Below, piece by piece: positions 7,484 through 29,267 of a stretch of DNA of 48,758 bases (the first letter of the stretch is position 1; each line of letters opens with the position of its first letter). Source of the DNA: Bdellovibrionota bacterium (lineage in GTDB: Bacteria > Bdellovibrionota_G > JALEGL01 > DATDPG01); assembly GCA_035292885.1 (NCBI GenBank), contig DATDPG010000041.1, forward strand, positions 1 to 48,758, written 5' to 3'. Under the pieces are notes generated by a model. It had not been told where the DNA came from, searched no databases, and saw nothing but the letters and a program-made list of their open reading frames with translations. A program made the position numbers and the translations under genes.

Positions 7484-9292
7484 ATGGCCGAAAGGGGAGA
7501 TAAGATCCCGCATCTTAATTACGGCGCCATTGGGAACGGCCGCGTACTCGCTTTGGTCTCCCCGGAAGCGAGTATCGACTGGCTCTGCCTGCCGCGATTT
7601 GACAGTCCATCGATCTTTGCCCGCCTATTGGATCAAGACAAAGGCGGCTCCTTCAAGATCGAAAGCGCGGGGGAAGCAAAAAGCTCGCGAACCGATTACA
7701 TCCAAAATACCAACGTACTTCGCACGCGGATCGAATGTGCGGACGGGAGTTTCGACGTCATCGATTTTTGTCCTCGTGTGAATCGGGGCTTGACGATGGA
7801 GGTTCCACTCGAGCTCCATCGTCTTGTCGTACCGCGAGAAGGAAGTCCTCCACTCCGAGTCCATTTCGACCCTCGGCCCGATTACGCCAGATCCCCGTTT
7901 GAAGTGATTCCGGGCCAGGGGGTGATCGAGCTCCGTAACGGATCGGCTCGCTTTTATCTGCATACCAATGCGCCGGTCACTTATGTGCGGAATCGCCAAC
8001 CGTTTCAGCTTTCAGAACCGACCTATTTCGTTCTCGCGTATGGCGCCCCCAGTAGCATCAACTCGTCGGCCGCAGTTCAACAGCTGCTCGATCTCACAAT
8101 CGCCACTTGGCGGACCTGGGTGAAGACCTGCGCGTTACCCTCATTTGCCGCCGAAACAGTCTTGCGCTCCGCCCTCTGCCTCAAACTGCACATTTTTGAA
8201 GATACGGGTGCCATCATTGCAGCCGCCACGACAAGCATTCCCGAAGCTTTGGGAACGGAGAGGACGTGGGACTATCGCTATTGTTGGCTTCGTGACGCGG
8301 CTTTTGTCGTGGAGGCACTCCGGCGTTTGAGCCATCTCGCAGAAGGAGAAGCCTTTGTAAGATTCCTTCTGGAGGTTGCGCAAGAGGGTCCGCTCCAACC
8401 GGTGTACGGGATCGGAGGGGAAAAAGTCTTGCCCGAAGAACGGCTGGATCACCTGCACGGCTTTGCGGGTTGCAAACCGGTTCGGATCGGCAATGCAGCC
8501 TACCTTCAGAAGCAACACGATCTGATGGGAGAAATTATTCTCTGTCTTGAAACACTCATGACCGACGAGCGCATTGTGCATGAAAAGACCGACAGGCTGA
8601 TGCGGCTGGTGGAAAGGTTGGTGGAGGAATCGATTAAGCTTGCACCCTTGAAAGATACGGGCCCTTGGGAATTTCGAACCTTGGAGCAGGATCATACGTT
8701 TTCCAAAGTCATGTGTTGGGTTGCGGCTCATCGAGGAGCGGAGCTCGCGGCGCGGTTTGGAAACCCGGCTACGGTCGAGCGATGGTCATCGTGGGCCAAG
8801 GCCTTTGGAGAGGAGATTCTTCGGCGGGGATACAACCCGCGGCTTGGCTTTTTCACACAGATCTTGGACGGAGAAAATCCCGATGCATCGAATCTCCTCC
8901 TCCCGACATTGGGGATCATCGATCCGCGCGATCCACGTTTCCAGTCGACCGTCGAAGCATACGAACGCCTACTTGTCCGGAACGGCTGGATGCTTCGTTA
9001 CAAGAACCGGGACGATTTCGGCGAAACCACGAGTGCTTTCTCGATCTGTTCCTTTTGGTGGGCGGAAGCTTTGGCGCTGGCCGGCCATCTCGACCGGGCA
9101 GTGGAACTTTTCCAACGTCTCGTTACGTACGCCAATCCGCTCGGCCTTTTCTCGGAGGATGTTGATCCGACGACGGGTAAACTGCTGGGAAATTTTCCGC
9201 AGGCCTATACTCACGTCGGTCTGATCCATGCTGCCATTACGATCGGTGAGCTTCTCGAAGCTAGAGACGCAAAGTTCCGTGCCTGGACTTAA
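7484..9292 (+). CDS. glycoside hydrolase family 15 protein (glucoamylase/trehalase-like)
   Basis: This 602-residue protein has the bacterial GH15 layout. An N-terminal beta domain starts LNYGAIGNGRVLALVSPEASIDWLCLPRFDSP, and an alpha/alpha barrel carries RTWDYRYCWLRDAAF, WEFRTLEQDHTFSKVMCWVA and FGETTSAFSICSFWWAEAL. Near the end, GLFSEDVDPTTGKLLGNFPQ contains the likely catalytic base Glu558. No signal peptide is seen, so it is probably cytoplasmic. Relatives hydrolyse alpha-glucans, dextrin or trehalose; the exact substrate cannot be told from sequence. It converges on the trehalose synthase/phosphatase gene with one base between the stops, which favours a role in trehalose or glucan turnover. 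Confidence 0.9.
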   Translation: MAERGDKIPHLNYGAIGNGRVLALVSPEASIDWLCLPRFDSPSIFARLLDQDKGGSFKIESAGEAKSSRTDYIQNTNVLRTRIECADGSFDVIDFCPRVNRGLTMEVPLELHRLVVPREGSPPLRVHFDPRPDYARSPFEVIPGQGVIELRNGSARFYLHTNAPVTYVRNRQPFQLSEPTYFVLAYGAPSSINSSAAVQQLLDLTIATWRTWVKTCALPSFAAETVLRSALCLKLHIFEDTGAIIAAATTSIPEALGTERTWDYRYCWLRDAAFVVEALRRLSHLAEGEAFVRFLLEVAQEGPLQPVYGIGGEKVLPEERLDHLHGFAGCKPVRIGNAAYLQKQHDLMGEIILCLETLMTDERIVHEKTDRLMRLVERLVEESIKLAPLKDTGPWEFRTLEQDHTFSKVMCWVAAHRGAELAARFGNPATVERWSSWAKAFGEEILRRGYNPRLGFFTQILDGENPDASNLLLPTLGIIDPRDPRFQSTVEAYERLLVRNGWMLRYKNRDDFGETTSAFSICSFWWAEALALAGHLDRAVELFQRLVTYANPLGLFSEDVDPTTGKLLGNFPQAYTHVGLIHAAITIGELLEARDAKFRAWT

Positions 9293-9293
9293 A

Positions 9294-11480
9294 TTACGTG
9301 AGTTGAGAAAGTTCATTCAAGATCTCGAGCACCTCGTCCGAACGTCTCAAATTAAAACGGGCGCGGGTTGGAGCAACGCCGACACGGCAAGTCCACGTGG
9401 TTGGGGGTAAGGCCTCGAACATCTCCTCATCCGATTGATCATCTCCCATCGCGAGGACGAAAGAAGACGTGGTGTCCACCTCTTCCCAGATGTGGCGAAT
9501 GAGCAAACCCTTGTTGATGCCCACCGGCCGAACCTCGACCACTTTATTGGCCTGCATTACGGTCACCGGAAGATTGGTTAATGTCTCTTCCAAATGAATC
9601 TTAAGTTCCAAGGCCTGCCATTCGCCGAATTTTTCGTTCACGGCCCGGTAATGCCAGGCCAAACCCGTTTTCTTTTCCTCCACAAATGAGCCCGGGATGC
9701 GGTCCGCGTGGTCTTTTAAGATTTTTGCGACCTGTTCCTTCCATTCGGTTACGAGGGAAGTGAGCGTTTTCCACTCGCCGGATCCCATCTTCCTCAAAAA
9801 CATTCCATGTTCCGCGGCCAGACCGGTTTGGGATTGGCCAAACCATTTGTCGAGGTCCTCGGTGGTTCGGCCACTGATGACATAAACCAGATTCTTGGGA
9901 TTCCCCGACAGACGGCCGAGAATGGCGAGAAGCTCTTTGGGCGGCTTGGCATCCTTGGGGTCCATGGCGAATGGGACCAGCGTTCCATCGTAGTCGAGAA
10001 GAATGAACCGTTTCGCCGCCCGTACGTAATCGATCTTCAAATTGAGAAAGTGCGCCCGTAGATCCTCGGTTTCAGAGATGATCGAAATGACCTTAGTCCG
10101 CAGATCACCGAGGAATCGTGTCGCCCATCCCTTGGCACTAAACGTTTTTGCGTACTGGTAATTTTCGGCCGCCCGTTTCGCCCGCTCCGGCTCCTCCATG
10201 GCGAGTGCCTGATGAATCGCGTTGGCCACACCTTGCGTCTCCCAAGGATTAATGAGCAGCGCGCCCGACAGGGAACGTGCGGCACCCGCAAACTCGCTTA
10301 GGACTAGAACACCGTGACGCTTCCTCTGACATACAGAGTATTCGAGACATACCAAATTCATACCGTCCCGAATCGAAGTTACGAGCAAAACGTCGGCTCG
10401 TTCATACAGTGCGCAGAGTTCCTCGAAAGAGAAATCGCGGACAAAGTACTGGATCGGCGTATATCCCGGTGCGCCGAACCTGCCGTTGATTCGGCCGACC
10501 AATTGATCGAGTTCATCCTTCTGGCGTTGGTACTCGCGAACGTCCGTGCGCGACGGAACAGCCACTTGGAGTAATACGACCTTTCCCTTCCATTCCGGAT
10601 GTAATTCCAGAAATCGTTCAAATCCTCTCAGTTTGTGGGGTAGCCCCTTGCTGTAGTCCGACCGGTCCACGCCCAGCACCAATTTCACGCTGGAATATCG
10701 TTCGTTGAGTTCCGTGCGCAAGGGGCTCTCCCTTTTTCGATCGATTTCCTTGCCGAAGATCTTCGGATCAATGCCGATGGGATAAGTTCCGTAAAGAATT
10801 TTTCGGTCTCCGTAGCGCAGTTCCGTCGGATGGATTTCCAGTCCTAAAATCCGCGAACATGTGACGGCGAAGTAACGAGCGTAGTCGTGGGTTTGAAAAC
10901 CAATCAGGTCGCTTCCCAAAACCCCTTCCAGAAGCTCCCGCCTCACCGGAAGCAGGCGATAGAGTTCGGACGAAGGAAAAGGAATATGAAGAAAAAAGCC
11001 GATTCGCAACTTTGGGCGCGCTTCGCGAAGAAGCTTGGGAAGCAATAGGAGGTGATAGTCGTGAACCCACACCAAGGTGTCGTCCTTGCATGCGTCGAGG
11101 ACGACCGCGGCGAACTTCTCGTTTCCTTTCTTGTATTCATCCCAGAAAGGGAGAGAGAAATCGACTCGCTCCGGAAAATAGTGGAAGAGAGGCCAGAGGA
11201 CCGAATTTGAAAATCCATTATAAAACTTTTCCACTTCTTCGTTGGAAAGAAAAACCGGCTGGTAAGCGGAGGAACGATTGAACATTTCTCTCACCGACGG
11301 CTGTTCGTTTTCCGGAACGGCGGCTCCGGCCCAACCGATCCAAAGGAACTTCATCTCTTGCTTCAAAGGGTCCAAGGCCGAAACAAGTCCGCCCGAGCTC
11401 GGCGAAGACATCCAATCGGATTCGCGTTTCTCCAAATGGATCGGAAGCCGGTTCGATACGATGATGAGTTTGGGGTCCAT
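9294..11480 (-). CDS. bifunctional trehalose-6-phosphate synthase/phosphatase (OtsA-OtsB fusion)
   Basis: One 728-residue chain joins a GT20 synthase to a HAD phosphatase. The synthase half (about 1-480) has LIIVSNRLPI, WIGWAG, VHDYHLLLLP, GFFLHIPFPSSE, YPIGIDP, GVDRSDYSKG and SIRDGMNLVCLEY. The phosphatase half (from about 500) has LLDYDGTLVPF (nucleophile Asp), VISGR and GDDQSDEEMF. It would make trehalose-6-phosphate from UDP-glucose and glucose-6-phosphate and then dephosphorylate it to trehalose. All catalytic motifs of both halves appear intact. The ATG at 11480 is preferred over a GTG at 11489. It is the last gene of a minus-strand cluster starting near 14024. Confidence 0.93.
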   Translation of the reverse strand: MDPKLIIVSNRLPIHLEKRESDWMSSPSSGGLVSALDPLKQEMKFLWIGWAGAAVPENEQPSVREMFNRSSAYQPVFLSNEEVEKFYNGFSNSVLWPLFHYFPERVDFSLPFWDEYKKGNEKFAAVVLDACKDDTLVWVHDYHLLLLPKLLREARPKLRIGFFLHIPFPSSELYRLLPVRRELLEGVLGSDLIGFQTHDYARYFAVTCSRILGLEIHPTELRYGDRKILYGTYPIGIDPKIFGKEIDRKRESPLRTELNERYSSVKLVLGVDRSDYSKGLPHKLRGFERFLELHPEWKGKVVLLQVAVPSRTDVREYQRQKDELDQLVGRINGRFGAPGYTPIQYFVRDFSFEELCALYERADVLLVTSIRDGMNLVCLEYSVCQRKRHGVLVLSEFAGAARSLSGALLINPWETQGVANAIHQALAMEEPERAKRAAENYQYAKTFSAKGWATRFLGDLRTKVISIISETEDLRAHFLNLKIDYVRAAKRFILLDYDGTLVPFAMDPKDAKPPKELLAILGRLSGNPKNLVYVISGRTTEDLDKWFGQSQTGLAAEHGMFLRKMGSGEWKTLTSLVTEWKEQVAKILKDHADRIPGSFVEEKKTGLAWHYRAVNEKFGEWQALELKIHLEETLTNLPVTVMQANKVVEVRPVGINKGLLIRHIWEEVDTTSSFVLAMGDDQSDEEMFEALPPTTWTCRVGVAPTRARFNLRRSDEVLEILNELSQLT

Positions 11481-11505
11481 CCCGCTCACGTCCCGGAAGT
11501 CGTCT

Positions 11506-19987: not shown

Positions 19988-20599
19988 TCAATGTTGATGT
20001 TTGCGTGTTTCGGGAGCCTTCTTTCCCTCTCCCAAAAATTTTAAGATCTCTTCGTTCTCTTTGAACTCCTCAAAGCTTTTTGGATTCAGGTTTTCCATCT
20101 CCTCCGTCTCTTCCTGAGAAAGATTCGGGAGATGCCGGATGAAATGAACGAGATGCCACGATTGGACGTCCGATTCGGGAGTGTCGTCTCCCCACGCCGG
20201 CATTCCGGTCAGGCGAATTCCATTCTTGATCGTGTAGAACAGTTCGCCGTCCGAAAGGGACTGAGTGGGAGACTTTCGCATGTCCGGCGCCTTGGGATAC
20301 ATATTTCGTCCCATCTCGGTCCCACCACCTCCATCGTTGGCATGACACGAGGCGCAGTGATCCGCGAAGTGAGCCATTCCGGACTTTACGACTTCGGGTG
20401 TCGCGGGGACCGGATTTTTCATCTCTCTTGCTGCGCGCGGCACGGCCCAACGGCGAAACTGTCTGGCCATGAATTTCTCGATCTTTGTCGGCTGATCTTT
20501 CGCGCTGAACCCGTAAACTACGATGTGCACGAAGGCCGCCGAACCACCCAAGACCATCAAAATAAGAACGGCCAACCCTATTTTCGTCCGGAGTTTCAT
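19988..20599 (-). CDS. membrane-anchored or periplasmic c-type cytochrome
   Basis: This 203-residue protein has an N-terminal hydrophobic segment (KIGLAVLILMVLGGSAAFVHIVVYG) that may be an uncleaved anchor. A single cytochrome c domain follows with heme motif CASCH (82-86) and a likely distal ligand Met133 in RLTGMPAWG, then HLVHFIRHLPNLS. The C-terminus is charged and ends in HQH. It would carry electrons in the periplasm. It overlaps the cusA-like gene by four bases, so it is translated with the efflux pump. A cytochrome in this position is unusual and may serve copper or redox detoxification. Confidence 0.88.
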   Translation of the reverse strand: MKLRTKIGLAVLILMVLGGSAAFVHIVVYGFSAKDQPTKIEKFMARQFRRWAVPRAAREMKNPVPATPEVVKSGMAHFADHCASCHANDGGGGTEMGRNMYPKAPDMRKSPTQSLSDGELFYTIKNGIRLTGMPAWGDDTPESDVQSWHLVHFIRHLPNLSQEETEEMENLNPKSFEEFKENEEILKFLGEGKKAPETRKHQH

Positions 20600-23500
20600 T
20601 TACTAGGCGGCGGGAGGGGGACCACCGTTCCCTCGCGCATCTCGAACTTCCATTTCCAAATCGAGTACAAAACAGGGTAGACCAGAAGCTCCAGTGTGAA
20701 AGAGGTAAAGAGTCCGCCGACCATGGGTGCGGCGATCCGTTTCATCATGTCGGCCCCCGTGCCGATCGACCACATGATCGGCAAGAGCCCCATAAACGCC
20801 GCCATGACCGTCATCATCTTGGGCCGGATTCTCCGGACGGCGCCGTGGAGGATCGAATCCTCCAAATCCTTGTATGTTCGCATCTCCCCTTTCCGCACTT
20901 TTTCCTCGTACGCGAGATCCAGAAACAGCAACATGAAGACCCCGGTCTCGGCATCCAGCCCCATGAGGGCAATCATCCCGACCCACGCGGCGATCGAAAG
21001 GTTGTAGCCGAGAAGATACATGAGCCAAATGGCGCCGATGAGGGAGAAGGGAACGGCCAGCATCACGATGCCGGCCTTCACCATCGACTTCGTGTTCATA
21101 AAGAGAAGAAGGGCAATCAGAAAAATGGTCAGCGGCAGAACGACTTTAAGCCGCTCGCGCACACGCGCCATGTTTTCGTACTGGCCGCTCCATACGAGGT
21201 AATACCCCTTGGGCAGCTCGAGCTTTTTCTTGACGGCAGCTTTCGCTTCATTGACATAGCCGCCGATGTCCCGCCCGGTCATATCGACATATACATACCC
21301 CGCAAGTTGGCCGTTCTCGTTACGGATCATGGCGGGGCCTTCCATCATCTTGATGTCCGCGATCTGAGCGAGAGGGATTTGCGCCCCCGAAGGCGTGGGG
21401 ACGAGGACCCGTTTCAATCGCGGAATGCTGTCCCGGAATTCCCGGGCGTAGCGGACGTTGACGGAATAGCGTTCGCGTCCTTCCACGGTGGTCGTGATGT
21501 TTTCACCCCCGATCGCCGACATGATGATCGTTTGCGCGTCCTCCACGGCCAGGCCGTAACGGGCCAATTCGTCCCGGTTCAAGACGAAATCGAGGTAATA
21601 GCCTCCGGCCGTCCGCTCGGCGAGGATGTTCCGCGTCCCTGAAACTTCCCGGAGAATCCCCTCCAGATCTTCGCCGATCTTCTGGATGACTTTGAGATCC
21701 GCCCCCAGGACTTTGATTCCGATCGGCGTTCGCACGCCGGTCGAAAGCATGTCGATCCGGTTCTTGATCGGCATCGTCCAAATATTGGGAATCCCGGGAA
21801 GCTTGAGCTTGGCGTCCATCTCGTTCTGAAGTTCCTCGAACGTAATGTGGTCGGGCGTGATCCGGGAAAAAACGGATTGGAGAAAACCGGGCATCCACGA
21901 ATACCAGCGCTTTACCTTCCGCCATTCAGCCGGCGGTTTTAAAATGACCGTCGTTTCGACCATCGAGAACGGCGCGGGATCGGTCGGCGAGTTGAATCGC
22001 CCCGATTTTCCGAACACCCGCTCCACTTCGGGAAAGGTCCGGAGGATTCGATCCTGAATTTGGAGAATCCGTTGAGCTTCGGTCACCGACATTCCGGGGA
22101 GCGCCGTCGGCATATAAAGGAAGGCCCCTTCGTTGAGCGGAGGCATGAACTCCGAGCCGAGTTTCAAATAGACGGGAACCGTGGACGCCATCAGGAGCCC
22201 CGTGATGACCAACGTCTTCCATCGGTGTTCCAAAACCCATCGGCAAACCGGTTCGTAGACTTTGAACAGAATCCGGCTGATCGGGTGTTTTTCCTCCGGG
22301 TAATACCGGCCCACGGTCACGGTATTGACGATCCACGAAAGCCAGCGCGGCTTCCAATGAACGTAATCCATTCTCGTGAACATCATCCGCATCGCGGGAT
22401 CGAGTGTGATCGCAAGAAGCGCGGCGATCGCCATCGCGAGATTCTTCGACCAGGCGAGCGGTTTGAACAAACGCCCTTCCTGATCGATCAGCGTGAATAC
22501 GGGCACGAACGCCACGGCGATCACCAGAAGGGAGAAGAAGACGGACGGGCCCACCTCCTTGAGAGCCTGGAGACGAATGAGATGAAAATCCCCCTTGCGA
22601 CCTCCGGCAATCCACTGTTCGAGGCGCTTGTACGCGTTTTCGACCTCCACGATCGCCCCATCCACGAGAACACCGATGGAGATCGCGATCCCGGCCAAAG
22701 ACATAATGTTGCTCGTCAGTCCCATCAAGTAGAGCGGAATGAACGCCAACAATACGGACACGGGTATGGTGACGATCGGAATGATCGCGGAAGGGACATG
22801 CCACAAGAAAAGCAGGATCACGAGGCTGACGATGATCATCTCCTCCTTGAGGGAATGAATCAGCGTTTCGATGGAATGCCGGATCAATTCCGATCGATCG
22901 TACGTCGTGACGATCTCGACCCCTTCCGGCAACGTGGGTTTGAGTTCTTCGAGTTTGGCTTTCACGCGGTTGATGATGGTCAAGGCGTTTTCGCCATGGC
23001 GCATGACGATGACTCCGCCGACCGTATCGCCGATGCCGTCGAGATCCGCCACGCCACGGCGAATATCGGGACCCAGCGCCACATTCGCCACGTGCTTGAG
23101 CAAGATCGGCGTGCCTGAAGCGTGGTCCACGGCGACGACGATCTTGTCGATGTCTTCCACCGATTTCGCGTACCCGCGCCCCCGCACCATATATTCCGTG
23201 CCGGCGAACTCCAGAAGGCGCCCGCCCACCTCCTGGTTTCCTTTGCGGACGGAATCGATGACCTGTGTGAGAGGAATATTGTAGGCAAGGAGCAAATTCG
23301 GATCGACGTTGACCTGATATTGCTTAACAAAGCCGCCGATGGCGGCCACCTCCGATACGCCGGGAACGGCCTGCAGATGGTACCGAAGGTACCAATCTTG
23401 AAGTGTTCGCAGTTGCGCGAGGTTGTTCTTCCCCGATCGGTCCACCAAGGCATATTGGTAAACCCAGCCAACGCTGGTGGCGTCCGGGCCGATTTCCGTT

Positions 23501-23874
23501 TTCACTCCCTCGGGAAGGGTAGGAAGGATCTTGCTTAAATATTCAACAACGCGGGAACGGGCCCAATAAATGTCGGTCCCATCCTGGAAAATGACATAGA
23601 CGTAGGAGTAACCGAAATCGGAAAAGCCCCGAATCGCCTTGATCTTAGGGGCGCCGAGAAGCGCGGCGACGATGGGATACGTGACCTGATCTTCCAAAAT
23701 GTCGGGGGAGCGGTCCCAACGAGAATAGACAATGACCTGGGTATCGGAGAGATCGGGGATCGCATCGAGCGGAATGTTTTTGACGCACCAAAGCGCTCCG
23801 AGCATCGCCGCGATCACGAAAATCATGACGAGCGCTCTGTTCTTCGCGGAAAATTCGATGATCTTCTCAACCAT
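20596..23874 (-). CDS. cusA: heavy-metal RND efflux pump, CusA/CzcA family (Cu/Ag type)
   Basis: The 1092-residue inner-membrane pump has the HME-RND signature NIPLDAIPDLSDTQVIVYSRWD, two large periplasmic loops and twelve helices. It also has VVYPI-type porter text (QVTYPIVAALLGAPKIKAIRGFSDFGYSYVYVIFQDGTD) and GRFNSPTDPAPFSMVETTVILKP. The segment NRIDMLSTGVRTPIGIKVLG keeps the IDMLSTG Met used for Cu/Ag transport in CusA. Charged residues of the proton relay lie in VLVDGAIVEVENAYKR. With the adaptor and outer-membrane factor upstream it would extrude Cu(I)/Ag(I) from the periplasm. It starts 11 bases after the cusB-like gene. Cu/Ag specificity is inferred from motif and context. Confidence 0.95.
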   Translation of the reverse strand: MVEKIIEFSAKNRALVMIFVIAAMLGALWCVKNIPLDAIPDLSDTQVIVYSRWDRSPDILEDQVTYPIVAALLGAPKIKAIRGFSDFGYSYVYVIFQDGTDIYWARSRVVEYLSKILPTLPEGVKTEIGPDATSVGWVYQYALVDRSGKNNLAQLRTLQDWYLRYHLQAVPGVSEVAAIGGFVKQYQVNVDPNLLLAYNIPLTQVIDSVRKGNQEVGGRLLEFAGTEYMVRGRGYAKSVEDIDKIVVAVDHASGTPILLKHVANVALGPDIRRGVADLDGIGDTVGGVIVMRHGENALTIINRVKAKLEELKPTLPEGVEIVTTYDRSELIRHSIETLIHSLKEEMIIVSLVILLFLWHVPSAIIPIVTIPVSVLLAFIPLYLMGLTSNIMSLAGIAISIGVLVDGAIVEVENAYKRLEQWIAGGRKGDFHLIRLQALKEVGPSVFFSLLVIAVAFVPVFTLIDQEGRLFKPLAWSKNLAMAIAALLAITLDPAMRMMFTRMDYVHWKPRWLSWIVNTVTVGRYYPEEKHPISRILFKVYEPVCRWVLEHRWKTLVITGLLMASTVPVYLKLGSEFMPPLNEGAFLYMPTALPGMSVTEAQRILQIQDRILRTFPEVERVFGKSGRFNSPTDPAPFSMVETTVILKPPAEWRKVKRWYSWMPGFLQSVFSRITPDHITFEELQNEMDAKLKLPGIPNIWTMPIKNRIDMLSTGVRTPIGIKVLGADLKVIQKIGEDLEGILREVSGTRNILAERTAGGYYLDFVLNRDELARYGLAVEDAQTIIMSAIGGENITTTVEGRERYSVNVRYAREFRDSIPRLKRVLVPTPSGAQIPLAQIADIKMMEGPAMIRNENGQLAGYVYVDMTGRDIGGYVNEAKAAVKKKLELPKGYYLVWSGQYENMARVRERLKVVLPLTIFLIALLLFMNTKSMVKAGIVMLAVPFSLIGAIWLMYLLGYNLSIAAWVGMIALMGLDAETGVFMLLFLDLAYEEKVRKGEMRTYKDLEDSILHGAVRRIRPKMMTVMAAFMGLLPIMWSIGTGADMMKRIAAPMVGGLFTSFTLELLVYPVLYSIWKWKFEMREGTVVPLPPPSK

Positions 23875-23885
23875 GATCGCGTCCT

Positions 23886-25136
23886 TTAGTGTCCGGCATG
23901 TGGGGAGGTGGCCGGAGGGGTGGCTGACGGGCTTTTCTTCAAAAACGCATTGAGCGCTGCTTTGAAACGGGATTCGGAGTCAATGAGGAAGTTCGCGGAG
24001 GTCACCACCTCCTCCCCTTCCGAAAGGCCGTTCATGACTTCGTAATACCCGACCGCTTCGCGGCCCAGGACGACCGGTCTCGGCTCAAACTCTCCCTCCC
24101 CCTTTTTCACGAAGACGATCTGGGTCTCCCCGGTGCTGAGAATCGAGCTGTCGGAAACCGCCACGACGTTCCCCAGCGGGATTCGGATTTTGATGTGAAC
24201 GAAGGTCTCGGGCCGGAGACGCTCGTCCGGTGTTTTGATTTCGGCGCGCACCTTCACCGTCCGGGTCATGGCGTTCAAGACCGGATCGATCGCCCTAATA
24301 CTCCCCCGAAACGTGCGACCCGGAATTGAGGGACTCGTGACAACGACCTCTTGCCCGGAACGAAGGAGGTCGACTTCGTACTCATAAACTTGCGCGTAGA
24401 CCCAGACCGTTTTCCCGGGCAACAAGAGATTGAGCGATTCCGAAGCACCGCCGGCAATCTGGCGGATCTGTGAATCCGAAAGACCCAGGAGGCGGAGCTT
24501 GAGCGCCGCGGCCTTGATGAGGTTCTCCGCCTCCTCGCGGGCCGTGGGCCAGGGGCTATTCTTGATTCGCTCCTTGGCCGCCACCGCCTCGCGGTATTCG
24601 GCCATCGCGTTGTACAGTTCCGGATCGAACGCCACACGGCCCACGGTGCGAATTTCCAAATCGAGCGGCCGCCGCGTCACCGTTTCGGTCGTGACACCGA
24701 TCAACTGCTGTCGCTCCGTCGGAATAGTCACCGCCGCGTGCCCTCCGACCGACCCGCCTCCTCCCGTTGCTTCATCCTCGTACACGGGAATGAAATCCAT
24801 CCCCATCTCGTCTTTGGATGGCGTGGGAGAGGTCACATCGAGGCGCATCGGGTGGCGGTAGAAAAGGATTTTCCGCTCCCCTGGTTCCAGTTGAGATTGC
24901 ACGGGCGCTTGAGAGGGAGGAGCGATCTCGTCGACCGCCTGGAGCGGCATCTGGCAGATGGGGCAATTGCCCGGCGTATCCGAAACAATTCCGGGATGCA
25001 TCGAGCACTGATAACGCTTTTTGATTTGGGCGGTTGCCGCGGTTTCTCGGCTTAGCCTCCATGCCCACCACGTAACCGTTCCGGCCACGAAAAGGACAAG
25101 CAAACCACCCGCCGCAATCACGACTCGCTTTTTCAA
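23886..25136 (-). CDS. cusB: RND periplasmic adaptor, CusB family, with heavy-metal-binding domain
   Basis: The 416-residue membrane-fusion protein has an N-terminal anchor (VVIAAGGLLVLFVAGTVTWWAW). Next is a heavy-metal-binding YHS-like domain with paired Cys and Met/His ligands (YQCSMHPGIVSDTPGNCPICQMPL, about 42-65), then the CusB segment RKILFYRHPMRLDVTSPTPSKDEMGMDFIPVY. Lipoyl/barrel-sandwich, hairpin and beta-barrel domains follow, and the protein ends SPATSPHAGH. It bridges the pump and the outer-membrane channel and can pass metal to the pump. It overlaps the outer-membrane factor gene by four bases (ATGA). No other assignment seems likely. Confidence 0.94.
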   Translation of the reverse strand: MKKRVVIAAGGLLVLFVAGTVTWWAWRLSRETAATAQIKKRYQCSMHPGIVSDTPGNCPICQMPLQAVDEIAPPSQAPVQSQLEPGERKILFYRHPMRLDVTSPTPSKDEMGMDFIPVYEDEATGGGGSVGGHAAVTIPTERQQLIGVTTETVTRRPLDLEIRTVGRVAFDPELYNAMAEYREAVAAKERIKNSPWPTAREEAENLIKAAALKLRLLGLSDSQIRQIAGGASESLNLLLPGKTVWVYAQVYEYEVDLLRSGQEVVVTSPSIPGRTFRGSIRAIDPVLNAMTRTVKVRAEIKTPDERLRPETFVHIKIRIPLGNVVAVSDSSILSTGETQIVFVKKGEGEFEPRPVVLGREAVGYYEVMNGLSEGEEVVTSANFLIDSESRFKAALNAFLKKSPSATPPATSPHAGH

Positions 25137-26515
25137 GGCCGGCCTCCTGTAAATTCGTCCGAATCAACTCCCAGGACCCGCTCCAGATGCGCCGTGCCCC
25201 GGCCGTATTCGGCGAGGTAACGGTAGTATTCCAGCCGGAAATCGATGAGTGTCCGGTCCGAGTCGAGAAGGTTCAAAAAATCCACTCGATCCGACTGATA
25301 CGCGGCTTCGGCCACGCGGAGAGACTGCTCCGCTTGAGGCAAAAGGGTGGTCAGATAGAGTTCGACGAGTCTTCTCGCCGTATCCACATGCACGAAAAAC
25401 TCCTGAATCTCCGATCGGGTTGCGGCCTGCGCGCCGCGCAGCATCTCCGCCGCCCGCTGCCGTTCGCTCTGTGCCGAGCTCACCTGCGACTTTTGCCGCC
25501 AAAACCAGAGGGGGACATTCAACTTAAAAAGAACGGAGGAATCATTTTGCGCCTGGAGGGATCCCCCGTAATCCCGCCATCCGTATTCGATCTGAAGGTC
25601 CGGCAAAAACTCGCTCTTCATGGCGCCGACCTCAGCTTGCATTTTTTCCAACTCTCGTTGGGCGCCGCGGATTTCGGGTCGCTCCTTGAGCGCGATCGAT
25701 TCCATCTCCGCATAGGTCTTGTTCAGGGGGAGAACCCGGGGCTCTTCCAGTGGACCGAACGGATCATTCGGCTTTCGGTCGAGAAGCGCGTTGAGCCTGG
25801 CTTGAACGGTTTGAAGTTCCTGCTCGAGAGTCACGACCATGTTGTTGGCCTTCGATAGCTCCACCTGCGCGCGCAAGACATCGGACTGGGAGGTCTTTCC
25901 GACGCCGTAGCGACTGGCGGCAATCCGCGTGAACTTACGAAGGATCTCGACGTTCTCCTTCGAGATCTGCACCGACCGATCCGCGAACATGAGCGCGTAG
26001 TACGACTCCTTCACTCGGGCAAACACGTCCCGTTCCGCGGTTCGATACGCCGCCTCTTCTCTTTGAGCCGCAAAAGACGCGGCTCGTCCTTTGTAAACAA
26101 GCTTCGAGGGAAAAGGAATTGTCTGCCCGACGCGGTACCAGGTCTCCATGGCCGAGCCGAAGTCAAACGTATTTTGGTTGATCCCCTCGTATTCGACGCC
26201 GAACTCAAGATCGGGAATCGACCGCGCCACGGAGATTTGGGCGCGCGCGCTCTCCCATCGCTTTTGGGCCGCCGCGATCTCCGGATTTCGCTGCTTCGCG
26301 ATTTCAAGGACGTCGCGAAGAGCGGCCGGCGGCGGGGCGTCCGCGTTCGCGTCGGCAGATGGCCCTAGGGAAAGCATCGGAACCCCCACCCACACAAACA
26401 GAGACAAAAGTGCTCCCTTCATCCGCTTGCGTTTCGAGGAATGCCTGAAGGGACGCGGCTGTTTTCTCTGTTGGATGAAGATCACCACTCCTGCCAGCAC
26501 TAGCGCGGTGTCCAT
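25133..26515 (-). CDS. TolC-family outer-membrane factor (CusC-like)
   Basis: The 460-residue reading frame has the TolC fold: two tandem helical hairpin repeats (EIAKQRNPEIAAAQKRWESARAQISVARSIPDLEFGVEYEG near the start, and AALRGAQAATRSEIQEFFVHVDTARRLVELY in the second half). A normal signal sequence begins at an internal ATG at 26422 (MKGALLSLFVWVGVPMLSL...ANA). However, the ATG at 26515 has the stronger ribosome site (GGGAGG) and would add 31 residues with their own hydrophobic run and basic stretch (FRHSSKRKR). It is the first gene of the minus-strand efflux operon. It forms the outer-membrane channel of the pump. No lipobox Cys is evident. Confidence 0.88.
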   Translation of the reverse strand: MDTALVLAGVVIFIQQRKQPRPFRHSSKRKRMKGALLSLFVWVGVPMLSLGPSADANADAPPPAALRDVLEIAKQRNPEIAAAQKRWESARAQISVARSIPDLEFGVEYEGINQNTFDFGSAMETWYRVGQTIPFPSKLVYKGRAASFAAQREEAAYRTAERDVFARVKESYYALMFADRSVQISKENVEILRKFTRIAASRYGVGKTSQSDVLRAQVELSKANNMVVTLEQELQTVQARLNALLDRKPNDPFGPLEEPRVLPLNKTYAEMESIALKERPEIRGAQRELEKMQAEVGAMKSEFLPDLQIEYGWRDYGGSLQAQNDSSVLFKLNVPLWFWRQKSQVSSAQSERQRAAEMLRGAQAATRSEIQEFFVHVDTARRLVELYLTTLLPQAEQSLRVAEAAYQSDRVDFLNLLDSDRTLIDFRLEYYRYLAEYGRGTAHLERVLGVDSDEFTGGRP

Positions 26516-26582: not shown

Positions 26583-26637
26583 TACGTTGCAAATCCCCCG
26601 TTTGTGACACTGTCACAAAATCCGGTCGGGCGACGTA
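26583..26637. promoter_or_regulatory. divergent ECF-type promoters sharing a palindromic -35
   Basis: The sequence TTTGTGACACTGTCACAAA (26601-26619) is a perfect palindrome around one central base. On the plus strand TGTCACA (26611-26617) is followed by 16 bases and CGTA (26634-26637). On the minus strand TGTCACA (26609 to 26603) is followed by 16 bases and CGTA (26586 to 26583). TGTCACA-N16-CGTC is a known motif for some ECF sigma groups. The plus promoter ends 7 bases before the sigma gene ATG; the minus one leaves a leader of about 60 bases before the cusC-like ORF. Confidence 0.75.
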
Positions 26638-26644
26638 TTCCTTT

Positions 26645-27205
26645 ATGAAGAGAATTGAAGCAACAGAATGCAAGCCTGAGGAGGCGCAAGCCGACGAGGA
26701 ACTGATGTCCGCGTATCAAAAAGGACAGGAGGAAGCATTTCGGATTCTTTACGACCGCTACTCCGGCCGAGTCTATGGCTACCTCCGCGTCAAACTGAGA
26801 AACCGTGACGTGGTGGATGACGCGTTCCAGACCGTTTTCTTGAAACTCCATCGGTTTCGAAGCAGGTATCTCGCAACGCTTCCCTTCGCCCCGTGGCTGT
26901 TCACGATCTGTCGGAACGTCATGTCGGATATCGGTCGTAGCCGGGCTCGCACCCGAGAGGACGTGGATGCGGTGGCGATCGAAAAGGCGACGGCCAACGA
27001 ACTTGTCCCGCCAGCCGGGCTGCCCGACCTTTCGGCACTCGCTCCGGATCGGCAAATGGCTCTCAAGCTCCGGTTTGGGGAGGATCTTTCCTATGAAGAG
27101 ATCGCCGAGCGGCTTGAGACCTCTCCGGCGAATGTCCGGCAACTCGTGAGCCGCGCCGTCCGGCAGCTTAAGAAAGTCTTGAAATCTGGGGAGGAAAAAC
27201 CATGA
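26645..27205 (+). CDS. ECF-type RNA polymerase sigma factor
   Basis: This 186-residue protein is a compact group-4 sigma factor. The region 2 text is EEAFRILYDRYSGRVYGYLRVKLRNRDVVDDAFQTVFLKLHRF (about 28-70) with TICRNVMSDIGR. Region 4 has ALAPDRQMALKLRFGEDLSYEEIAERLETSPANVRQLVSRAVRQLKK (about 128-175). It has no extra C-terminal domain. The next gene overlaps it by four bases and encodes a membrane protein that is probably its anti-sigma factor. A TGTCACA-N16-CGTA promoter lies right before its start, so it likely activates itself and the divergent efflux operon. The start lacks a ribosome site, so the message could be leaderless. Confidence 0.93.
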   Translation: MKRIEATECKPEEAQADEELMSAYQKGQEEAFRILYDRYSGRVYGYLRVKLRNRDVVDDAFQTVFLKLHRFRSRYLATLPFAPWLFTICRNVMSDIGRSRARTREDVDAVAIEKATANELVPPAGLPDLSALAPDRQMALKLRFGEDLSYEEIAERLETSPANVRQLVSRAVRQLKKVLKSGEEKP

Positions 27206-27750
27206 CCGGTCTTTCATCCACAGAAAAATGGTTCAAGGAGTTCCAGGAATTCATGACAGCGGAATCGATGGACCCGCCGAGGGGGCTCACGGAAAGCCTT
27301 TTAGTAAAAGTGCGGGCCGATTTAAATCCGCCGGCCTGGAAGGTCTTCTTCAAGTTGGGCGGGATTCATACGATCGTCGGCTCGTTGACGCTCCTCATCT
27401 GCCCTCAGTTCGGACTTGGCCCGAGCCTGGGCCTTATGAAATACCTGATGAAATTGGGACCGCACGCCTGCATGTTCGGATGCGGAATCCTGTTCCTCGG
27501 CGCCTCCGCTCTCGTCGCAAGCCTCGTGTTGAGACTGGAGGAGATCCGCGTGCTTCGGAAAACGGTTCTTCTCCAATTCGCCCTTCTCGGACTTGCCTCG
27601 ATCGGCGTGTTTCTCTGTCTGGGCGCTGACGTAATTTTGGACTTGGGACTGGTCTGGATCTTGGGATCCATCCTCGGGGGGATCGCGACCCTTGAGTTGG
27701 GATGGCTGATTCGTTCGGGATTCCGCAAGGTGGATTCGTATGGCTTTTAG
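27202..27750 (+). CDS. putative membrane anti-sigma factor with cysteine motif
   Basis: This 182-residue protein begins with a soluble segment of about 50 residues (LSSTEKWFKEFQEFMTAESMD, TESLLVKVRADLNP) and continues with about four hydrophobic segments. The first two enclose CPQFGLGP and HACMFGCG, a His and three Cys near a membrane face. This resembles the build of NrsF-type anti-sigma factors that sense metals through Cys, though I see no clear homology. The four-base overlap with the sigma gene strongly suggests joint function. The soluble N-terminus would hold the sigma factor until the periplasmic or membrane Cys/His site senses metal. The function is inferred. Confidence 0.65.
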   Translation: MTGLSSTEKWFKEFQEFMTAESMDPPRGLTESLLVKVRADLNPPAWKVFFKLGGIHTIVGSLTLLICPQFGLGPSLGLMKYLMKLGPHACMFGCGILFLGASALVASLVLRLEEIRVLRKTVLLQFALLGLASIGVFLCLGADVILDLGLVWILGSILGGIATLELGWLIRSGFRKVDSYGF

Positions 27751-27820: not shown

Positions 27821-28285
27821 ATGAATCTATTTAAACTTGTTTCGATGGGTTGGCTGGCGTTCGCGGTAAGTCCATTCCTCGGAGGCTGTTCGGGTCATGA
27901 CGAAATGGGAACGATGGGCCAGCTGTCCTCTCAGATGCAGACGCGGGAGAGCGCTTACCACGATGCCGTAGCAAGTCTTTCCGACGCGGACCAGGTCCGC
28001 GAGGAGACGAATCAATACGCGACGGACATGAACGATATGCTGTCCCAAATGGAGAGTACCTGCTCGGAGAAGATGACGGAGCATAACGGCATGATGGGAA
28101 ACACCGACGTCTCTCAACTTTGCGGCATGCAGGATGACATGATGATGGCGGTCAGCGACCACCAGGAACGAATCAACGGGATGACCGACGTCGCCACCAT
28201 GAAGGCGGAGTGTGGCGAACACTATCAAACGATGCAGGGAATGCTGGACACGATGGACTCGATGATGTCCGGCGACATGATGTGA
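27821..28285 (+). CDS. Met-rich lipoprotein, possible copper-binding
   Basis: This 154-residue protein has a lipoprotein signal (MNLFKLVSMGWLAFAVSPFLGGC), with Cys23 in a lipobox-like LGGC followed by SGHDEMGTMG. There are 24 Met in total, many in clusters (GMMG, DDMMMAV, MSGDMM at the end), plus His and three further Cys. The body is helical, probably a bundle. Methionine clusters of this kind bind Cu(I) or Ag(I) in periplasmic proteins. A strong ribosome site (AAGGAG) precedes the ATG. It lies 70 bases after the putative anti-sigma gene and may belong to its transcript. The family is not recognised. Confidence 0.7.
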   Translation: MNLFKLVSMGWLAFAVSPFLGGCSGHDEMGTMGQLSSQMQTRESAYHDAVASLSDADQVREETNQYATDMNDMLSQMESTCSEKMTEHNGMMGNTDVSQLCGMQDDMMMAVSDHQERINGMTDVATMKAECGEHYQTMQGMLDTMDSMMSGDMM

Positions 28286-28685: not shown

Positions 28686-29267
28686 TCATCTGTTGTCGAT
28701 TCCTAAGGAAGAACGTTGCGTTGAATCGATCTCGGTTCCTGATTTGACCTTGGATGATTTCCGCCCGCGTTTCTTTAGAAGTTCGCATTTCGCGTACATT
28801 ACGTGGCGATGGCCGACCTCGGAGAATTTGAGTCGCTTGAGGATGGTCTCTTGGTGCACTTCGATACTGTCGTCATGAAATTCAATGATGTGATGGCAGT
28901 CGACGCAGACGATGTGGTCGTGGTGGTAAACGGTGGCTAACTCATAAAGGATCTGGCCTTTTTCGTTCGTAAGGCTCTCCCGCAGAATACCTGCGGCTAC
29001 AAAAATCGGGAGGTTCCGGTAAACGGTCGCCGGGCCGACCGACGGATTTTTAGCCTGGACCTTTTTGGAAAGCTCTAAGGCGGTGAAGTGGCGGTCCATG
29101 GCCAGGATGACATTGAGGATCATCTCCCGGGCCGAGCTTCGGTTTAACTGATGGGTCACCTCGTAGTCGGAAAGACGCGTGGAGTAACGGTCGGCTCGCG
29201 AAGTGCCATGCTGCGCCTCTGACCGATCGATCGTCCGGCCGCAGGGCAATGTCTTCTTTATTTCCAC
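28686..29267 (-). CDS. Fur-family metal-responsive regulator
   Basis: The 193-residue protein has an N-terminal winged helix (FTALELSKKVQAKNPSVGPATVYRNLPIFVAAGIL) and a C-terminal Fur domain. Ligands are visible in YHHDHIVCVDCHHIIEFHDDSIEVHQ (the HHDH site and one CxxC) and in EVGHRH. The second CxxC pair of many Fur proteins is missing (YAKCELL). The tail is basic (KKRGRKSSKVK). It could be Fur, Zur or PerR-like; the subtype is not certain. It starts from a GTG at 29267 and diverges from a small operon carrying a Fur-box-like repeat, which it probably controls along with itself. Confidence 0.9.
   Translation of the reverse strand: MEIKKTLPCGRTIDRSEAQHGTSRADRYSTRLSDYEVTHQLNRSSAREMILNVILAMDRHFTALELSKKVQAKNPSVGPATVYRNLPIFVAAGILRESLTNEKGQILYELATVYHHDHIVCVDCHHIIEFHDDSIEVHQETILKRLKFSEVGHRHVMYAKCELLKKRGRKSSKVKSGTEIDSTQRSSLGIDNR

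Follow-up and report, generated by a model that had tools for sequence, protein, structure and literature searches.

ECF sigma factors are usually cotranscribed with their anti-sigma factor (PMC3426412). In Caulobacter crescentus, the heavy-metal ECF factor sigma-F is controlled by NrsF, a polytopic membrane protein that acts as a cysteine-dependent negative regulator (PMC3511200). The promoter motif TGTCACA-N16-CGTC has been reported as specific to the ECF41 group (PMC3426412). The locus described here shares some features with these systems. It lies in a stretch of 48,758 nucleotides from a Bdellovibrionota bacterium, which was analysed as a whole and is called the window in the following. 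We conclude with good confidence that it contains the region controlling an autoregulated ECF sigma/membrane anti-sigma system for copper or silver stress. Its features are:

19988 to 20599, minus strand: cytochrome c protein (Cytochrome_CBB3), 4-base overlap with the end of cusA
20596 to 23874, minus strand: CusA-type RND pump (TIGR00914, 1036 bits, cut-off 701)
23886 to 25136, minus strand: CusB-like periplasmic adaptor with a heavy-metal-binding domain (HlyD_D23 and HMBD)
25133 to 26515, minus strand: CusC-like outer-membrane efflux protein (Pfam OEP, 2.4e-53), first gene under the minus-strand promoter
26583 to 26609, minus strand: putative promoter toward the cusCBA-like operon; -35 TGTCACA at 26609-26603, 16-base spacer, -10 CGTA at 26586-26583, exact match
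26601 to 26619: 19-base perfect palindrome TTTGTGACACTGTCACAAA, arising where the two -35 elements abut, a single base apart
26611 to 26637, plus strand: putative promoter toward the sigma gene; -35 TGTCACA at 26611-26617, 16-base spacer, -10 CGTA at 26634-26637, exact match
26645 to 27205, plus strand: ECF sigma factor of 186 aa (Pfam Sigma70_r2, 35-102, and r4_2, 129-175)
27202 to 27750, plus strand: membrane protein of 182 aa, its gene overlapping the sigma gene by 4 bp
27821 to 28285, plus strand: putative Met-rich lipoprotein of 154 aa (open reading frame downstream of the membrane-protein gene)

The original prediction was that TGTCACA-N16-CGTA is present on both strands with equal spacing and that the two -35 elements overlap inside a perfect palindrome. 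Both motif copies are exact and the palindrome is indeed perfect, but the -35 elements do not overlap: they abut, separated by the single base C26610. Their centres are 8 bp apart and the -10 elements 47 bases. The chance expectation of the motif in the window is 0.01, and none of 100 shuffles contained two copies. TTTGTGACACTGTCACAAA is also the only perfect inverted repeat of the window with 9-bp arms and a loop of 0-3 bases. In the 3.1-Mb assembly these are the only exact copies with the 16-base spacer; allowing spacers of 15-17 bases yields one further match, with 15 bases, on contig C189. With the longer motif TGTCACAAA-N14-CGTAWT, which is the consensus from related loci, the next best sites of the genome carry two mismatches, and this search gave no further convincing sites that would indicate a larger regulon in the source genome. 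By this strict motif the regulon there is the sigma/cus divergon alone.

The sigma factor consists of regions 2 and 4 only and, with its 186 residues, is an ECF (group 4) factor (regions 2 and 4, about 170-200 aa). According to Pfam it stops soon after region 4 and has no SnoaL-like C-terminal extension. It is 55-58% identical to that of the sister locus L034 (Bdellovibrionales bacterium HKST-UBA30), which groups with the window locus in the sigma tree with a support of 100/97.

The divergent operon starts with a cusC leader of about 60 bases containing a ribosome-binding-site-like GGGAGG, and probably ends with the cytochrome c gene. For the adaptor the CusB subfamily model is the best one, yet the score stays under its cut-off. 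M573, M623 and M672 are the established methionine ligands of E. coli CusA, and in an alignment to the CusA crystal structure all three positions are kept in the pump. Because this pump of the CusA/CzcA family keeps the Met triad, copper/silver is our best guess for its substrate. On the sigma side, the 154-aa lipoprotein has many methionines and a few cysteines; family models gave no confident family for it. It looks like a periplasmic copper-binding protein, and its distance of 70 bases and its strand suggest that the gene is possibly cotranscribed with the sigma operon. A gene for a FUR-family regulator (28686-29267, minus strand) and one for a 335-aa protein with the heavy-metal-binding domain PF19335 (29728-30735, plus strand) lie beside the system, which suggests a small metal-resistance island. 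Elsewhere in the window, a gene for a GH15 enzyme with a trehalase-like N-terminal domain (7484-9292) stands tail to tail with one for a fused trehalose-phosphate synthase/phosphatase (9294-11489).

The original prediction had missed the 182-aa membrane protein altogether, together with its wide distribution and the likely leaderless sigma mRNA discussed below. Pfam and NCBIfam yield no family for this protein, and a profile search of the PDB gave no solved relative. Its AlphaFold model (mean pLDDT 93.9) shows a soluble N-terminal stretch of about 43 residues with two short helices, followed by four long helices (45-66, 87-109, 122-139 and 146-179); a fold search of the model against solved structures returned nothing at E <= 0.001. 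Across 83 aligned family members F17, C67, Q69, C94 and W152 are invariant, C90 is found in 95% and M91 in 75%, and residue 56 is H or Q in 97%. By the positive-inside rule the N terminus is predicted to be cytoplasmic and the C67-C94 region periplasmic. A C67-C94 site facing the periplasm would suit a sensor of soft metals from which a sigma factor is set free, by analogy with NrsF of Caulobacter sigma-F (PMC3511200). Gene order, size, topology and conservation make the protein a candidate for an anti-sigma factor that senses Cu(I)/Ag(I).

The association with the sigma gene is widespread. A query with the membrane protein against one genome per species (GTDB 220) gave nine loci, the sister locus L034 among them, all nine with the sigma gene directly upstream. 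The motif is present in each of them in the stretch that separates the sigma gene from the divergent side, in several with one-base variants on one side. The protein is present in 196 of the 369 genomes of the Bdellovibrionota set and in three of the five genomes of the window's own small phylum; it is rare in the sampled Thermodesulfobacteriota (5/395) and was absent from all 53 genomes outside the window's phylum in a broad panel of relatives. Among 123 loci examined, which were drawn from the better-scoring part of the family and come in many cases from MAGs, the membrane-protein gene directly follows the sigma gene in 115.

Possibly, the promoters and their control by the sigma factor are genuine, the membrane protein serves as a metal transporter or chaperone instead, and the sigma factor is regulated by its level alone. 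This would agree with the fact that neither the sequence nor the fold of the protein matches known anti-sigma factors. However, the gene order in 115/123 loci speaks against it, as do the small size and the two-helix N-terminal stretch, which suit an anti-sigma layout, and the usual cotranscription of ECF factors with an anti-sigma protein (PMC3426412). We thus regard a transporter or chaperone as unlikely and prefer the anti-sigma factor.

The promoter rule was derived from the 115 loci with the sigma and membrane-protein genes side by side, where a motif call demanded an exact CGT. Of these loci, 89 carry GTCACA-N16-CGT on the sigma side and 73 carry it on the divergent side. A spacing of 15 bases was found in 10 and 9 loci, respectively; the remaining spacings from 8 to 27 bases mostly gave counts of 0-3, the exceptions being a single 8 and a single 4. 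Both sides have the consensus TGTCACAAA-N14-CGTAwT in common, and the -10 element reads CGTA in 94-95% of the N16 sites. In total, 82 loci have a recognisable pair, 19 a site on the sigma side alone, four on the divergent side alone, and ten have none. The ten motif-free loci (L054, L081, L096, L104, L107, L108, L120, L121, L133 and L136) are paralogous or distant sigma/membrane-protein loci, which may use another promoter sequence.

A search of related genomes for the paired motif had been proposed along with the original prediction. Its result is divided: the promoter pair is retained (82/115 loci), the palindrome is not, the -35 elements of the sister locus being 92 bases apart. By this comparison the conserved unit is the promoter pair rather than the palindrome. 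That the sigma factor drives itself and the cus-like operon stands as the best reading, with a promoter-like motif kept on both sides of orthologous sigma genes.

These data also bear on the possibility that a dimeric regulator, for example a CRP/FNR-like protein or a metal-sensing repressor, uses the palindrome as its operator and that the resemblance to promoters is incidental. The perfection of the 19-base palindrome and the nearby FUR-family gene are what such an operator would have in its favour. The CRP consensus is TGTGA-N6-TCACA, and TGTGA-N5-TCACA in the window is one base shorter. A dimer operator would preserve the dyad and not the link to a -10 element. In most relatives the opposite is found: the half-sites are 40-130 bases apart, each with CGTA at exactly 16 bases. 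We therefore reject the operator as very improbable. Still less probable is that only one promoter is real and the second a by-product of the symmetric -35, which the palindrome would supply automatically in the opposite orientation, because the -10 at 16 bases falls outside the palindrome and most relatives, including the sister locus, have separate, well-spaced promoters on both sides.

With two genuine promoters as the preferred reading, the distance between them becomes informative. In the 82 paired loci, the gap between the -35 elements is 0-1 bases in 12 (exactly 1 in ten of these) and 3-32 in 13; all others have gaps of 41-127. Loci with a gap of 0-1 are scattered over the sigma tree, which requires about nine gains or losses, at least seven of them forced by well-supported branches. 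Since the spacers between -35 and -10 vary freely among the compact loci, these are not one recently shared segment. The palindrome is thus a recurrent compact form. To regard it as the ancestral or universal form is unsupported in view of the roughly nine changes on the tree and the gap of 92 in the sister.

Gaps near multiples of 10.5 bp (1, 53, 75) are favoured, with a resultant at this period of 0.34 for about 51 loci after thinning at 60% identity and 0.28 for about 33 after thinning at 50%. Gaps of 53 and 75 are common to relatives, and sister pairs on the tree show no clustering of their gap differences at multiples of 10.5. The pattern hints at helical phasing, but common descent may account for it.

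Compact loci differ in a second respect. Transcription from ECF promoters normally starts about 7-8 bases past the -10 element. An ATG lies 7-8 bases past CGTA in 8 of the 12 compact loci versus 7 of the 89 others (Fisher p 1.2e-5, uncorrected for relatedness), and in the window the sigma ATG begins 7 bases after the -10. Because the ATG falls about where transcription would start, the sigma mRNA is probably leaderless in the compact loci, including the window.

Polymerase footprints are known well enough to judge the overlap of holoenzymes from promoter geometry. At a distance of 8 bp between the -35 centres, any two holoenzymes would overlap upstream of both promoters; hence their mutual exclusion is likely in the window, and unlikely at gaps of at least 50. 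Competition of the two promoters for polymerase would be confined to compact loci at most, where it is plausible from geometry alone. It is not a general property because the sister and most relatives have promoters 40-130 bases apart.

In 33 whole genomes the exact motif gave 61 matches, mostly at the sigma locus, compared with 5 for a reversed control pattern. The off-locus matches examined precede RND pumps, an OEP protein, a cupredoxin, a Haem_bd protein and a multicopper oxidase that carries an HMBD; a few precede genes without an obvious metal role. At the sigma locus itself, the first divergent genes encode OEP-type efflux proteins, heme-binding proteins (PF14376), small Cys-rich proteins, DUF6448 and other families. 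The coincidence of motif and metal genes in independent genomes is the strongest evidence for the function.

In some Bdellovibrionota the first divergent gene encodes an exported, metallothionein-like Cys-rich protein of 60-75 aa (L040, 5183-5407; L041, 5133-5360; L148, 404-586). In the Thermodesulfobacteriota loci L037, L038 and L039 it encodes a DUF6448-type protein. The position under this motif would link the uncharacterised DUF6448 family to metal stress. On contig C45 of the sister genome (G001), two further exact motifs point away from each other at a distance of 19 bases (L189, 1521-1593). This second pair adjoins a gene of the SLOG/'lysine decarboxylase' family, a possible second target.

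From these observations the following mechanism can be proposed. In the absence of metal, the sigma factor would be tethered to the inner membrane by the 182-aa membrane protein. It would be released once Cu(I)/Ag(I) in the periplasm occupies the conserved cysteines, which would lie where membrane helices 1 and 2 end on the outer side. The freed holoenzyme would then read TGTCACAAA-N14-CGTAWT on either strand, transcribing cusCBA in one direction and the sigma/anti-sigma operon in the other. In the window, the motif leaves hardly any room for a closer packing of the two promoters; two polymerases could probably not be bound there simultaneously, and the promoters would alternate. Speaking against this mechanism are the ten loci without a motif and the 23 with a one-sided site, the lack of an anti-sigma match for the membrane protein, the reported restriction of TGTCACA-N16-CGTC to ECF41 (PMC3426412), the strict regulon of a single divergon, and the choice of loci from the better-scoring part of the family, many of them from MAGs.

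A more far-reaching proposal, which we put forward tentatively and consider somewhat short of an even chance, is that of an undescribed copper/silver ECF class, found in roughly half of the Bdellovibrionota sampled, with a new four-helix anti-sigma factor (periplasmic C67/C90/C94), whose promoters have collapsed independently in several lineages, forcing autoregulation and the pump to compete for a single site of polymerase binding, with a leaderless sigma mRNA. If this were true, the compact palindrome and the leaderless message would limit runaway autoactivation. The compact palindrome offers a natural test case of a regulator whose gene and target could not have their promoters occupied at the same time, and relatives in which these promoters are separated by 50-100 bases provide the control. 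The promoter rule is precise enough for regulon finding from sequence. In addition, a membrane-protein family without a Pfam model comes to light, and lineages that include predatory bacteria gain a well-defined candidate regulator/target pair for metal stress. A literature search, which left most subscription journals outside, found no published account of this system or of a comparable regulator in these lineages.

How does the system relate to those already described? The resemblance to ECF41 that had been predicted, despite the lack of the SnoaL-like extension, is borne out: the -35 and the spacing are identical and the extension is absent. ECF41 factors have this C-terminal extension, COE gene neighbours and the -10 CGTC, in contrast to the membrane partner, metal genes and CGTA found here (PMC3426412). 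Missing extension and differing -10 place the window sigma outside ECF41. CorE and CorE2 of Myxococcus (ECF44, now ECF238) are likewise ECF factors controlling copper genes, but in CorE copper is sensed by a Cys-rich domain at the protein's own C terminus, and no anti-sigma factor is linked to it (PMC3107203). The window sigma does not belong to this group: its 186 aa include no C-terminal domain, and a membrane partner gene accompanies it in 115/123 loci. Acinetobacter SigAb/AabAB is similar in that an autoregulated ECF factor, needed for copper resistance, has anti-sigma genes downstream; it differs in its promoter (GTCAAC/CGTT) and in having metal pumps as indirect targets (PMC12153292). 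The bidirectional sigma-70-type promoters of E. coli also have pseudo-symmetric DNA, divergent transcripts and polymerases competing for one site, yet they share -10 bases between the two directions (PMC12825309). The window promoters are not of this kind, as their -10 elements are separate, outer and 47 bases apart and the -35 elements abut centrally.

Sigma-F/NrsF differs in several ways. NrsF is a DUF1109 protein with six predicted membrane segments (PMC3511200), whereas the window protein has no Pfam match and four helices in the model and is no member of that family. The sigma-F promoter is GTAACC-N16-CGAA and the signal chromium/cadmium (PMC3511200), compared with TGTCACA-N16-CGTA and probably copper/silver here. 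In its design, however, the window system is like sigma-F/NrsF: a sigma gene is followed by a gene for a polytopic membrane protein, cysteines are conserved (and functionally required in NrsF), the regulon is small (metal-induced in Caulobacter), and one motif with a 16-base spacer stands before both the sigma gene and the target operons (PMC3511200).
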